Positions 5,543 through 21,723 of a stretch of DNA of 23,896 nt are shown in pieces. Source of the stretch: a virus. Numbering within the stretch: position 1 is the stretch's first letter; every line of letters starts with the position of its first letter. The notes under the pieces were generated by a model. It was given only the letters and a program-made list of their open reading frames with translations, ran no database searches and was not told the origin of the DNA. The position numbers were made by a program, and so were the translations under genes. The stretch lies in the IMG/VR virus record IMGVR_UViG_3300034102_000876, positions 1-23,896 of that record; one strand, written 5' to 3'.

Positions 5543-8149
5543 TTGACTAGAAAGTTACAGTATTTTTTAACCAGCCTTTTTATAATCGGCTGGCTTTTCC
5601 TTTTTAGTCCTAATTTTGCTAATGCTAATGAGCCACCAGCACCTGCAGAGCAAGTTGTAGTAAGCCCAGCACAGCAGGCAGTTAATACAGCTCTTGCTAC
5701 AGCAACTACAGAAGTTGCACAAGCCGCAGCTGCATCGGATACAGCCACTGCCGTAATAGCAACAGCAGTACAGGCAGTCACAACATCTAATGAAGCCGTA
5801 GCTACCGCAAACACTGCAGTTACAACAGCAGTAGCAGCAGTTGCAGAAGTTGCAAGTACAGCAACAGTTGTAGAAACAGCAACAGCAGTAGTTAGTGATG
5901 TAACAACTGCAGTAGCTGCAGTAACAACAGCGGTTGAAGCAATTCCTGCAAACGCAACAACAGCAGCTCCAGAAGTAGCAGTTGCCCAAGCAGCAGTTGA
6001 ATCAGCAACTACTGTAGTAACAGCTGCAGCAGAAACAGTTATATCGTCATCGAATACTTTGTCAGCAACACCCATTGCTACAGTTGAAGAGGTGGCCGTA
6101 GCAGTTGCAACAGAAGCAGCACAGGCCGCAACAGCCTCTACTTCAATACAAGCAGCTCAAGCAGCAGTAGATACAACTACTGCTACCATTACAACAGCAA
6201 CGACGGCTTTAGCAGCAGTATCTCCTGCACGGACAGAGGCTCAAACACAATTAACTCAAGCAAACGTAGCAATTAATAACGCTCAAGACGCAGTCAACGC
6301 CCTTGCAGCAACTATCGGCACAACTACAAATGTTTTATCTAATGTCGATGACGCTGGCGTTCGAATGAACCTTCCCTTTAATTTACAGATGGGTGGAGTA
6401 ACATATAACAATGTTTTTGTAGGCTCTAATGCAACAATTACTTTTGGGGTAAATGAAGGTGGAACATATCACACTACACCTAATGCTCCTTCTATATCTA
6501 TAGCAGGCTGGGACTGGACTACATGGAGTAATGGGTCTGGAATCACATACTCAACAACTACTAATACACTTAGTGTTGCTTGGGATCTTAGAGTTTATCC
6601 TTTAACTACAGCCGAGACACAAATGACTCAAGTTAGATTTAACGCAGACGTTAATCCATCTAACGGAGCATGGCAGGCAGATGTTAATGTTACTGGACCA
6701 ATACCAAACGGTGCTAGATTTAATATAAGAGAAACAGCAGGCGGAGCAATAACACCTATTATTGATACTAATTCAGGTCCTGGATTTAATGGGACAATAA
6801 GTCAAGGACCAGCCTTTACTCCTACACCTGATCCAGATAATGCAACAGTATTGGCAGCAATTGATACAGCAAACGCACAAATTGCTACATTAAACTCAGC
6901 AGTTACTGCTATTGTTGCAACAAATACAGCAAATACAAATACAGTTATTGCACCAATCGCAACTGTTTCACAAAATACTGTAACGGCATTATCAGCAGCA
7001 AGCACAACATTGACTGAAAAGGTGGCAGACCTTGCAATTGTTTCTACAGCCGTAGAAAAAGTAACTACCGCACCTACAATATTAGCAGTAGCACAAACAG
7101 TAATTGATGCAGTTCCTGCACCAGCCCCTACTCCACCTGCACCAGCCCCTACTCCACCTGCACCAGCTCCTGAACCACCTGCACCAGCTCCTGAACCACC
7201 TGCACCAGCTCCTGAACCACCAGTTGCCGAACCACCAGTTGCTGAGCCACCAGTTGCTGAGCCACCAGTTGCTGAGCCACCTGCAGAAGAGCCACCTGCA
7301 GAAGAGCCACCTGCAGAAGAACCACCTGCAGAAGAACCACCTGCAGAAGAACCACCTGCAGAAGAACCACCTGCTGAAGAACCACCTGCAGAAGAACCAC
7401 CTGCAGAAGAACCACCTGCAGAAGAACCACCTGCAGAAGAACCACCTGCAGAAGAACCACCTGCAGAAGAACCACCTGCTGAAGAACCACCTGCAGAAGA
7501 ACCAGAGGCGGGATCAGAAGAAGCAGTAGAAGAATCTGTTGATGACGCATTGTCTGATGGCAAAATAGATGCAGAGGAAGCAGAAGATATTTTAAATGAG
7601 TTAGCAAGTGACGGTGAAGTAACTGCAGAAGAAGTTCAAAATCTTGCAGATGCTTTATCCGAAGATGGAAAATTAACTAATGCAGAAAAAGAATTGGTAG
7701 CAGAGGCTCTTGTAGAGTCTATTGCTCCTGGAGAATCTTTAACTAAAGAACAAATACAAGAGGCTGGAATTGAGTATAAAGATTTGCCTGCAGATACACC
7801 TGTTGAAGTTCGTCAAGATGAAAACGGTAACGAAGTTGTTATTACTGCAGAGGTAGCAGCATCTTTGGTATTGCTTGAAAATCCTGCAGAGTTATTATCA
7901 ACAGCATTTTCAGACCCTGGAGCGGCTATTCAGGCATTGAGTAATATAGGTGCTGATATGTCAGATGAAGAAAGAGAAGAGGCAACAGAAATGGTTGTAG
8001 CAACAGTTGTAGCAGCAGGTGCCGCAATTAATGCAGCAGCAGTTGCCACAGGAGGAGCCACTGGAGGTGGCACAGGGGGCGGAGGAAGTTCTGGGGGAGG
8101 CTCATCAGGAGCAAATTCACCAGGTTCACGAGGAGGTAGAAAATGGTAA
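5543..8149 (+). CDS. Giant secreted repetitive surface-type protein (868 aa)
   Basis: It starts at TTG 5543 behind GGAG 5531. A Sec signal peptide (KLQYFLTSLFIIGWLFLF, AxA cleavage after about residue 28) leads into an Ala/Val/Thr-rich helical region (about 29-260), a beta-rich domain (about 265-430, with VFVGSNATITFG and AGWDWTTWSNGSG), a second helical stretch, a Pro/Glu repeat stalk (about 520-654), three DG-E units resembling degenerate EF hands (LSDGKIDAEEAEDIL, ASDGEVTAEEVQNL, SEDGKLTNAEKELV), a helical domain (about 740-835) and a Gly/Ser tail. The architecture suits an extracellular stalked adhesin. A secreted protein next to lysis genes is odd for a phage; the C-terminal part resembles freshwater actinobacterial envelope proteins as I remember them, suggesting host origin. 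Confidence 0.88.
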   Translation: MTRKLQYFLTSLFIIGWLFLFSPNFANANEPPAPAEQVVVSPAQQAVNTALATATTEVAQAAAASDTATAVIATAVQAVTTSNEAVATANTAVTTAVAAVAEVASTATVVETATAVVSDVTTAVAAVTTAVEAIPANATTAAPEVAVAQAAVESATTVVTAAAETVISSSNTLSATPIATVEEVAVAVATEAAQAATASTSIQAAQAAVDTTTATITTATTALAAVSPARTEAQTQLTQANVAINNAQDAVNALAATIGTTTNVLSNVDDAGVRMNLPFNLQMGGVTYNNVFVGSNATITFGVNEGGTYHTTPNAPSISIAGWDWTTWSNGSGITYSTTTNTLSVAWDLRVYPLTTAETQMTQVRFNADVNPSNGAWQADVNVTGPIPNGARFNIRETAGGAITPIIDTNSGPGFNGTISQGPAFTPTPDPDNATVLAAIDTANAQIATLNSAVTAIVATNTANTNTVIAPIATVSQNTVTALSAASTTLTEKVADLAIVSTAVEKVTTAPTILAVAQTVIDAVPAPAPTPPAPAPTPPAPAPEPPAPAPEPPAPAPEPPVAEPPVAEPPVAEPPVAEPPAEEPPAEEPPAEEPPAEEPPAEEPPAEEPPAEEPPAEEPPAEEPPAEEPPAEEPPAEEPPAEEPPAEEPPAEEPEAGSEEAVEESVDDALSDGKIDAEEAEDILNELASDGEVTAEEVQNLADALSEDGKLTNAEKELVAEALVESIAPGESLTKEQIQEAGIEYKDLPADTPVEVRQDENGNEVVITAEVAASLVLLENPAELLSTAFSDPGAAIQALSNIGADMSDEEREEATEMVVATVVAAGAAINAAAVATGGATGGGTGGGGSSGGGSSGANSPGSRGGRKW
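7280..7504 (+). repeat. 15 tandem copies of a 15-nt unit (PAEEP)
   Basis: Fifteen in-frame copies of CCTGCAGAAGAACCA, with GAG for GAA in the first copies and GCT for GCA in two, encode residues 580-654 as PAEEP repeats. Related PAPEP and VAEPP units lie just upstream (about 7110-7279). Near-identity at the DNA level points to recent slippage or recombination, so copy number probably varies between relatives. The peptide should form an extended, negatively charged stalk. Confidence 0.95.
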
Positions 8150-20101: not shown

Positions 20102-20311
20102 ATGATACAGAACCTAGAAATACCTGATCCATTTGCTACATTTGTGGCACACAAATATGCCAATTTTAAAGGTGCTAAATATGACTTCTTTAGCGGTGAA
20201 TGGGATATGGAATGCGGGGCATGCAAAGAACCATTAAGCGCTGGCAGTAAGAAGATGCTAACTAAGATCAGACTTTATCATACTCGCAATGAATGTCTGG
20301 GTGGATACTAA
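20102..20311 (+). CDS. 69-aa zinc-binding protein
   Basis: MECGACKEPL (C-x2-C, about residues 37-40) together with YHTRNEC (His59, Cys64) gives a CCHC-type arrangement in a basic context. The mRNA should be leaderless from the promoter just upstream. It resembles small phage zinc-finger proteins of unknown target. The stop overlaps the next ATG by one base. Confidence 0.75.
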   Translation: MIQNLEIPDPFATFVAHKYANFKGAKYDFFSGEWDMECGACKEPLSAGSKKMLTKIRLYHTRNECLGGY

Positions 20312-20547
20312 TGCACAATCATGAGTTTAAATTAGACCTAGATGGTCAAGTAACATGCTCTGTATGTGGTACTATGGATAATGAAGTAAATATTTCAGGT
20401 TCGTATAACGGCAGTACGCCAGGTTCCGAACCTGTAAATGAAGGTTCGACCCCTTCACCTGAAGCTGATGAAATAGGATATTCTACAGGCAAGTGGTCAG
20501 ATGATGATGACTTTGGCATAACTCCATTTCTAGGACCAATGAGATAA
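20311..20547 (+). CDS. 78-aa protein whose coding frame contains a tRNA-like gene
   Basis: Start ATG 20311 (TAATG overlap); a TTG 18 nt upstream in frame is less likely. The N-terminus has HNHEFKLDLDGQVTCSVCG, a CxxC knuckle with His residues, and the C-terminus is acidic (KWSDDDDFGITPFLG). Residues about 28-51 (SGSYNGSTPGSEPVNEGSTP) are low-complexity and are encoded by the same bases that fold into a perfect tRNA cloverleaf at 20394-20464. Either the tRNA is embedded in a tolerant linker of a real protein, or the frame beyond the CxxC motif is partly incidental. The junctions with both neighbours favour a real gene. Confidence 0.6.
   Translation: MHNHEFKLDLDGQVTCSVCGTMDNEVNISGSYNGSTPGSEPVNEGSTPSPEADEIGYSTGKWSDDDDFGITPFLGPMR
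20394..20464 (+). tRNA. tRNA-Arg-like (anticodon CCG), nested in a coding frame
   Basis: Acceptor stem TTCAGGT (20394-20400) and ACCTGAA (20457-20463), 7 perfect pairs; T8; D arm GTAT/GTAC with A14, GG (20410-20411) and A21; anticodon stem CAGG/CCTG around the canonical loop TTCCGAA, anticodon CCG (20426-20428); 4-nt variable loop; T arm GAAGG/CCTTC with TTCGACC; discriminator G 20464; no encoded CCA. All usual invariant bases fit. Oddities: U1-A72 at the tip, C9, a C-U mismatch at 27-43, and C rather than A at position 20, the usual Arg identity base. It would read CGG. Active gene or tRNA-derived element cannot be decided by eye. Confidence 0.75.
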
Positions 20548-20559
20548 AGGCGGGAATCG

Positions 20560-20757
20560 ATGATAGCTAATATACTAGGTAGAGATCCCAATTGCTATAC
20601 AGGAGCAGACTGTTGGAGTTATGATCATTCTAATAGATGGCTATTACTCTTTGGTATTATATTAGGTATAGTAGGTATATACCGTGCAATTAAGATCTAT
20701 AGAGACCAAGATAAGCTACATGAGAGTTCCTCTCAAATAGAGCAAGATAGGTCTTAA
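20560..20757 (+). CDS. 65-aa single-TM protein
   Basis: Preceded by AAAGGCGGGA before ATG 20560. The N-terminus carries two Cys (PNCYTGADCWSY) that would lie outside, then a TM helix (about residues 28-44, LLLFGIILGIVGIYRAI) and a charged tail. The last plus-strand gene before the non-coding region; no terminator is apparent after it. Function unknown. Confidence 0.75.
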   Translation: MIANILGRDPNCYTGADCWSYDHSNRWLLLFGIILGIVGIYRAIKIYRDQDKLHESSSQIEQDRS

Positions 20758-20972
20758 CCCTTATATCCCCCCTCCCTTTATCCCCTCTCATATACCCCTT
20801 AGAAGGCTTATTTGACTGCATAGATAGTCAGATCATAGAAAATAAATACTATTAAAACTAAACCATTTACTATCATAATATATCTATTTAGATATATGTG
20901 TAATGGGACATGCCCTCCATAAGCCCCCATTTTAATCCACTTTGCTCCACATAGACCCCATATGCCTATCAT

Positions 20973-21240
20973 ATTTCAGGGATCCTGTCAATACCCTCGT
21001 AAATAGCATATTTGGCCCACATTGTCAATAGATTTCTATAGAAAAATTTTGACCAATTTTGGGTATATTATGCCAGATTCATTATATGTTTTGGATCATT
21101 CCATATAGATTATATTAGATTAAATATACTTTCTTCTAAAATTTGAGGGATTTTTTAGAGCTCGTCGTAAATGAAATATATGGCCCACAATTTCAGGGAC
21201 TTTTTTTGATCTGTCGTAAAGGGGAAATTTGGCCCACATT
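20973..21240 (+). repeat. Three copies of a 51-bp iteron-like unit
   Basis: Units at 20973-21023, 21141-21191 and 21190-21240. Each begins ATTTCAGGGA (ATTTGAGGGA in the second), and exactly 24 nt after its first base has TCGTAAA, followed by a variable 4-mer, an A/T run and TGGCCCACA. The second and third are adjacent with a 49-nt period; the first is 168 nt before the second, about 16 helical turns. Constant internal spacing with a divergent middle is what bound sites of a dedicated protein look like. The CCCACA end resembles part of a DnaA box. Confidence 0.85.
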
Positions 21241-21285
21241 TTTTCCACAAAAAAATCCACAGGCTGTGGATAAACCTGTGGATAA
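21241..21285 (+). other. Symmetric cluster of four DnaA-box-like 9-mers
   Basis: TTTTCCACA (21241-21249), AAATCCACA (21253-21261), TGTGGATAA (21265-21273) and TGTGGATAA (21277-21285). The last two are perfect reverse complements of the bacterial DnaA box TTATCCACA; the first two have one and two mismatches. All start exactly 12 nt apart, and the two pairs face each other around 21263 (TCCACAG-G-CTGTGGA). This suggests recruitment of the host initiator DnaA. Confidence 0.8.
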
Positions 21286-21312
21286 TTCTGGGCTATATTA
21301 GATTACATTGAT

Positions 21313-21723
21313 CTACATTCCCTGGTTTACAAATGTATTAGATTTATTATTTGTTTCGTGTAACCAAGAGTATCTATATGATTGTTCTTGTTCTTGTGGT
21401 AGGGCCTTTACGAATGCCCGCCTTTGGTTTGGAGTCATAGGCAGTTTAACATTCTTTAATTCATTCTCATTGTTAATCTTATCTATAACTAAGTCTAACT
21501 TAGAAGCAATAGCAAGGCCTTCTGATATCGCCCCACCCGTTTCCAGTTCTCGGTCATATCGTCTTGCCTGCTTCTCGATAACCCACGCAACGACCTCCAT
21601 AACACGGTCTAGGGTGTATGTAGGCTGGTCTGCTAGATACCTGCCTAAAGCGGCAGGATTGAAGAAATGGTCTTCTACTGAATTAGTTAGTAGTTCTGCT
21701 ATCTGCTGTTCTTTAGTTTTCAT
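21313..21723 (-). CDS. 136-aa actinophage conserved protein, unknown
   Basis: A helical protein with SVEDHFFNPAALGRYLADQP, TYTLDRVMEVVAWVIEKQAR and GGAISEGLAIASKLDLVIDK. I recall this pattern from actinobacteriophage hypothetical proteins, where it has no assigned function. AGGCGGA before the ATG and TATAAT at 21755-21750 (minus) serve it. As the gene closest to the candidate origin, a role in replication or its control is possible but unproven. Confidence 0.8.
   Translation of the reverse strand: MKTKEQQIAELLTNSVEDHFFNPAALGRYLADQPTYTLDRVMEVVAWVIEKQARRYDRELETGGAISEGLAIASKLDLVIDKINNENELKNVKLPMTPNQRRAFVKALPQEQEQSYRYSWLHETNNKSNTFVNQGM

Follow-up and report, generated by a model that had tools for sequence, protein, structure and literature searches.

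A putative composite replication origin with three-block repeats and a double DnaA box in a large actinobacterial phage

Results

Gene setting and base composition of the locus

The stretch of DNA under analysis, hereafter the window, is a virus fragment of 23.9 kb (23,896 nucleotides) recorded in IMG/VR. Its large terminase is 62–63% identical to the terminases of Stanwilliamsviridae Streptomyces phages, and the window as a whole has no direct DNA similarity to isolate phages. Within the explanation that we find best, and judging from sequence, the carrier is a large freshwater actinobacterial phage related to the Stanwilliamsviridae, and probably a virulent one. The region of interest (20758–21312) is located between two convergent gene ends, an ORF on the plus strand which ends at 20757 and one on the minus strand which ends at 21313, in agreement with an earlier sequence-only reading that described it as non-coding and as the place where two gene blocks meet. 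The rightward block finishes to the left of the element with a gene of 65 amino acids (20560–20757, plus strand) and the leftward block finishes to its right with a gene of 136 amino acids (21313–21723, minus strand), both of unknown function. Both blocks are transcribed towards the element, which is an unusual setting for an origin and counts against this interpretation. Elsewhere in the window, a tRNA-Arg (CCG) at 20394–20465 overlaps a predicted ORF (20293–20547), and an ORF of 868 amino acids (5543–8149) contains a long PAEEPPAEEP repeat; a similar protein of 921 amino acids from a related contig (G001, L257:4144–6906) has a weak TerB-like similarity.

The element had also been regarded as AT-rich, which holds in a mild sense, as the region has 34% GC versus ~38%; this value is nevertheless ordinary and not an extreme of the window, several other 300-bp stretches being lower. 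By the usual rule, a maximum in cumulative GC skew marks a replication terminus. In the contigs examined such a maximum is found at the locus, which taken at face value counts against an origin, and the skew analysis that had been put forward as a check on the origin proposal therefore returned an extremum of the wrong sign. In fact, the sign of the skew flips with gene direction, which the extremum follows, and the main blocks have a third-codon skew close to 0, so that the skew is uninformative with respect to the origin and argues neither way. GC skew was thus discarded as an origin signal.

Repeat units

Three direct repeats start at 20973, 21141 and 21190. As previously noted from the sequence, all three have an exact ATTTSAGGGA, and in every unit TCGTAAA is placed at an offset of +24 (20997, 21165 and 21214) and TGGCCCACA at an offset of +40. 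The assigned unit length of 51 bp needs some adjustment: three 51-nt units can indeed be drawn, but the conserved core comprises 49 nt, and since unit 3 directly follows unit 2, at a step of 49 bp, 51-nt units overlap by 2 nt. Unit 1 (20973–21021, plus strand), which reads ATTTCAGGGA ... TCGTAAA ... TGGCCCACA, is orthologous to the 'first' unit of 23 relatives; it is followed by an AT-rich spacer (21022–21140) which contains a palindrome (~21024–21053) and may be the unwinding region. Unit 2 (21141–21189, plus strand) precedes unit 3 (21190–21238, plus strand), which adjoins the DnaA-box array and has its counterpart in 37 'last' unit copies among 38 relatives.

Across the three units 31 of the 51 columns are identical, and the most alike pair shares 36 of 51 positions; out of 1000 dinucleotide-shuffled versions of the region none reached this value (maximum 34). 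A stringent unit pattern occurs in the window at this element only, which counts for an origin; on the other hand, the unit-to-unit steps are 168 and 49 bp in the window and take other values in relatives, and this irregular spacing counts against it, as does a unit length well above that of classical iterons. Folding of the window units as RNA was no better than that of shuffled sequences (z of +0.7 and +1.2) and no Rfam match at the element reached a family's threshold, so a structured RNA in these units was rejected.

DnaA-box array and terminator signature

Unit 3 leads into four DnaA-box-like 9-mers, two per strand, which start at 21241, 21253, 21265 and 21277, all at 12-bp steps, exactly as the sequence-only reading had stated. 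Its description of two of these as perfect also stands, although the four sites are far from equivalent. The two perfect boxes (21265–21273 and 21277–21285, minus strand, both TTATCCACA) are separated by a 3-bp gap and are the two halves of a double DnaA box. The site at 21241–21249 (plus strand, TTTTCCACA) has one mismatch and is not conserved in relatives, and that at 21253–21261 (plus strand, AAATCCACA) is a weak box with two mismatches which forms an arm of a terminator hairpin and is preceded by a conserved A-run. No other perfect DnaA box is present in the whole window, and two perfect same-strand boxes within 30 bp were found in none of 300 shuffles of the whole window. Clearly, the repeats and the paired boxes are not a chance occurrence.

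The array also comprises an intrinsic-terminator-like hairpin for the minus-strand gene block (21249–21283, minus strand), in which a GC-containing stem of 11 pairs (21283–21255) is followed by a T-run, as is typical of intrinsic terminators. This is the sole terminator call in the region, and its RNA fold amounts to −24 kcal/mol (z of −5.3). All 38 relatives selected for having the array show the corresponding plus-strand A-run, and the stem extends outside the boxes as GG/CC in 31 of them, with a compensatory AC/GT in one (L095). In relatives whose boxes have moved or are lost, a different hairpin with an A-run is found in the same position, suggesting that termination and DnaA sites are separable and that both are apparently kept. 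We consider that the array likely doubles as a terminator of the minus-strand genes, an extra function which the sequence-only reading had overlooked.

The terminator observations would also fit a transcription insulator between the convergent blocks, consisting of a leftward terminator perhaps helped by DnaA as a roadblock, the repeats being unrelated or regulatory. We judge this to be unlikely as a full account, as relatives whose array is on the left side of the units retain the double box with no terminator, as Streptomyces phages keep the array without the A-run and between genes running in one direction, and as the repeat ruler is left unexplained. Insulation or termination is probably an additional rather than an exclusive function.

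Conservation in freshwater relatives

Searching with the 136-aa protein encoded beside the element yielded 20 loci, and DNA-pattern searches yielded many more. Filtering resulted in 38 non-redundant regions having the array and an adjoining unit, with 86 unit copies. As the array was a requirement of this filter, the loci from the protein search are a fairer sample; most of them have the array, which is on the opposite side of the units in L015 and L016 and absent from L021. Within the 38 array-filtered relatives, the distance from CGTAAA to CCC is 18 nt in 86/86 unit copies and that from GGG to CGTAAA is 21 nt in 79/85 copies and 20 nt in 6, while the gap of the double box is 3 bp in 32 relatives and 2 bp in the other 6. 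Units number two to four in relatives, as compared to three in the window, and have one orientation. Repeat conservation and box spacing in relatives, which had been named as checks on the origin proposal, are therefore both borne out, and the maintenance of unit ruler and double-box gap in 38 relatives was counted for an origin.

In seven further relatives (L015, L016, L052, L079, L082, L120 and L346) the double box is placed on the opposite side of the units, and inspection of the first five evidenced a separate, box-free hairpin at the usual terminator place, which indicates that boxes are kept near the units without a terminator job. Two findings count against an origin: L021 retains two units with no DnaA box nearby, and a subgroup (L039, L049 and L117) has degenerate boxes.

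The 'middle' units of several relatives (L007, L008, L012, L013, L017 and others) contain a covarying hairpin around CGTAAA (CTCCGTAAACGGAG, CCCGTAAACGGG and GTCGTAAACGAC), which is absent from the units of the window. The element could in principle be a packaging, partition or RNA element that merely resembles an origin, and the covariation around CGTAAA in 13 such units (9 cells with changes on both sides versus 3.6 in shuffles) would fit an RNA; given that only one unit class has the hairpin, that the window units fold no better than shuffles and that the terminase gene is ~17 kb away from the element, we hold this to be very improbable.

A second DnaA-box element, GTTATCCACAGGnTTACGnnnGTTATCCACAAyCCC, with boxes ~21 bp apart, was observed in the related contigs (G001:4203–4232, G006:66168–66197 and G003:112459–112488), as well as in L286, L293, L306, L334 and L340. 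Upstream of genes, it is accompanied by a site resembling TGTGA-N6-TCACA and a motif resembling TATAAT, and it is present in at least 120 viral contigs, several of which have two or three copies ~1–1.4 kb apart. Such pairs upstream of genes in these phages imply that DnaA boxes alone are not origin markers, which was counted against an origin. A similar inverted-plus-tandem box array is also found in a different sequence context in L145, L146, L147, L153, L159 and others, mostly short viral contigs. In a contig of an uncultured actinobacterium (L467:112–141), the same 30-bp box array as in these phages is located ~0.9 kb upstream of dnaA, an occurrence in an actinobacterial genome which was counted for an origin.

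These data bear on the possibility that the element is a DnaA-control site rather than an origin, which would titrate, reactivate or inactivate host DnaA, or regulate transcription, thereby redirecting host replication. Indeed, in Escherichia coli double DnaA boxes outside oriC act at promoters and at DARS2 (PMC11317965), and the same phages carry the other two-box elements just described. The array is nevertheless linked to repeats with a fixed ruler, occupies a single conserved position in DNA that otherwise lacks genes, and in the freshwater phages has no gene start adjoining it, which makes this explanation improbable in our view. It is, together with the transcription insulator, the main rival of the origin interpretation.

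Streptomyces phages with the same layout

A blast search with the window element matched 33 nt of the array at 97% in Faust, Moab, Sham and Patelgo. Tandem CGTAAA repeats plus the array TTCCACAGGCTGTGGATAAACCTGTGGATAA or close variants were found in Faust, Sham, Annadreamy, Limpid, Beuffert, Moab, Gilson and others, a DnaA-box region which is unannotated in the records and was found in this analysis. Some of these repeats have GGG ~21 nt before CGTAAA, and the second unit of Annadreamy, Limpid and Beuffert has the full ruler (GGG before and CCC 18 nt after CGTAAA), which is partial in the others. The array is placed within a mostly gene-less stretch of 1.3–1.8 kb with the CGTAAA repeats at its left end; annotated genes inside it are an endonuclease gene in TunaTartare and a small gene in Beuffert. 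Genes of the same direction flank the stretch on both sides. In BillNye and Wakanda the array is rearranged, with two boxes one way and one opposite. The five phages first examined (L388, L389, L390, L391 and L274) all have a lone TGTGGATAA ~255 bp downstream of the array. Over most of the genome, BillNye has the same gene order as a freshwater contig of 110 kb, the early block being inverted. The combination of CGTAAA repeats, near-identical array and common gene order in these phages was counted for an origin.

No plasmid relatives of the Streptomyces phage region were found, and none of 47 matching records corresponded to BE-cluster-dependent satellite phages (PMC10690885) sharing it. A non-coding block near the array of the Streptomyces phages (L388, 2145–2275) recurs at ~75% identity in unrelated 18-kb Streptomyces tectiviruses (Forthebois, L479, 1501–1631; RickRoss).

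Replication genes

DnaB is encoded in 11 of 11 freshwater contigs, these being near-complete, and PolIII-alpha and a DnaG-like primase in the one freshwater contig examined in detail. Among 11 contigs of 86–116 kb, none was found to encode a DnaA ATPase domain or a DnaA DNA-binding domain, and a phage-encoded DnaA was accordingly rejected. The presence of own PolIII-alpha, DnaB and DnaG-like primase alongside the absence of DnaA domains was counted for an origin. The proteins adjoining the element have no initiator match in Pfam or PHROGs, and the lack of a rep-like gene beside the element counts against it. A small HTH protein (phrog_9440) is encoded beside the helicase gene in both freshwater and Streptomyces phages, and as a guess we put it forward as a candidate repeat binder. 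An AlphaFold model of this helicase-linked protein had a mean pLDDT of 47, too poor for use.

Discussion

We favour, with some reservation, the interpretation that the element is a composite replication origin which would use host DnaA together with a phage repeat-binding protein. It draws on features read directly from the genomes, namely the repeats, their ruler, the double box, the family-wide linkage of these, the terminator signature and phage replisome genes without a phage DnaA; from them we infer DnaA binding, a repeat-binding protein, unwinding, helicase loading and origin activity. The sequence-only reading had proposed this design, which suits a phage that encodes PolIII-alpha, DnaB and a DnaG-like primase and lacks a DnaA gene. 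The four boxes of that reading are not equal, and it had missed the terminator. Host DnaA would bind the double box at 21265–21285 and a phage protein would bind the ~50-bp units on their fixed ruler (GGG, 21 nt, CGTAAA, 18 nt, CCC), and the two together would open nearby AT-rich DNA, at which the phage DnaB helicase, DnaG-like primase and PolIII-alpha would be loaded. In the freshwater lineage the box array would, in addition, have evolved into an intrinsic terminator of the leftward gene block and would thereby shield the origin from transcription that converges on it. The literature searched contained no report of origin activity for the element.

Origins made of iterons and DnaA boxes are known from P1 oriR (phage/plasmid), RK2 oriV, F and pSC101 (review, PMC4980987). 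The element resembles those of P1/RK2 type in having direct repeats in one orientation beside DnaA boxes (L021 being an exception), and in a design that would combine host DnaA with a replicon-specific initiator. The iterons of P1 and RK2 are ~17–22 bp long and regularly phased, whereas the units described here are far longer (49-nt core, ~50 bp), irregularly spaced and made of three separated conserved blocks. Also, the cognate initiator gene is beside the repeats in P1/RK2-type replicons, unlike the element, and the carrier belongs to a phage type of ~110–130 kb with its own PolIII-alpha, DnaB and primase.

With regard to the boxes, ChIP-seq in E. coli indicates that DnaA prefers a 'double DnaA box', in which a gap of 2 or 3 bp separates two boxes on one strand (Stringer et al. 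2024, PMC11317965), an arrangement which the element shares; here, however, it is found in a phage, is mirrored against weak boxes and, in the freshwater lineage, is folded into a terminator. The bacterial BUS (PMC6669920, PMC8287927) likewise has tandem boxes at most 3 bp apart and a GC-rich GGGC after the last box. It also has DnaA-trios, whereas by eye no convincing trio run was seen in the element, on the side where general knowledge would place it. A further likeness is that of the Streptomyces Loccivirinae phages (Faust, Annadreamy, BillNye), with CGTAAA repeats, a nearly identical array and a common gene order; their region differs from the window in its much longer gene-less stretch, the extra lone box ~255 bp downstream, the lack of a terminator signature and genes which are not convergent.

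For the family as a whole we propose, more tentatively, that large virulent actinobacterial phages start lytic replication at a composite origin, in which a new phage initiator would read the three-block ~50-bp repeat and host DnaA would occupy the double box, the DnaA sites of the freshwater lineage being folded into a terminator that would shield the origin from converging transcription. Few large actinobacteriophages have a known origin, and the presence of the layout in culturable Streptomyces phages makes the idea directly testable. The freshwater array would also be a clear-cut example of DnaA sites put to a second use in transcription termination. If the proposal is true, a virulent phage would rely on host DnaA, and its replication would be coupled to the control of initiation in the host.
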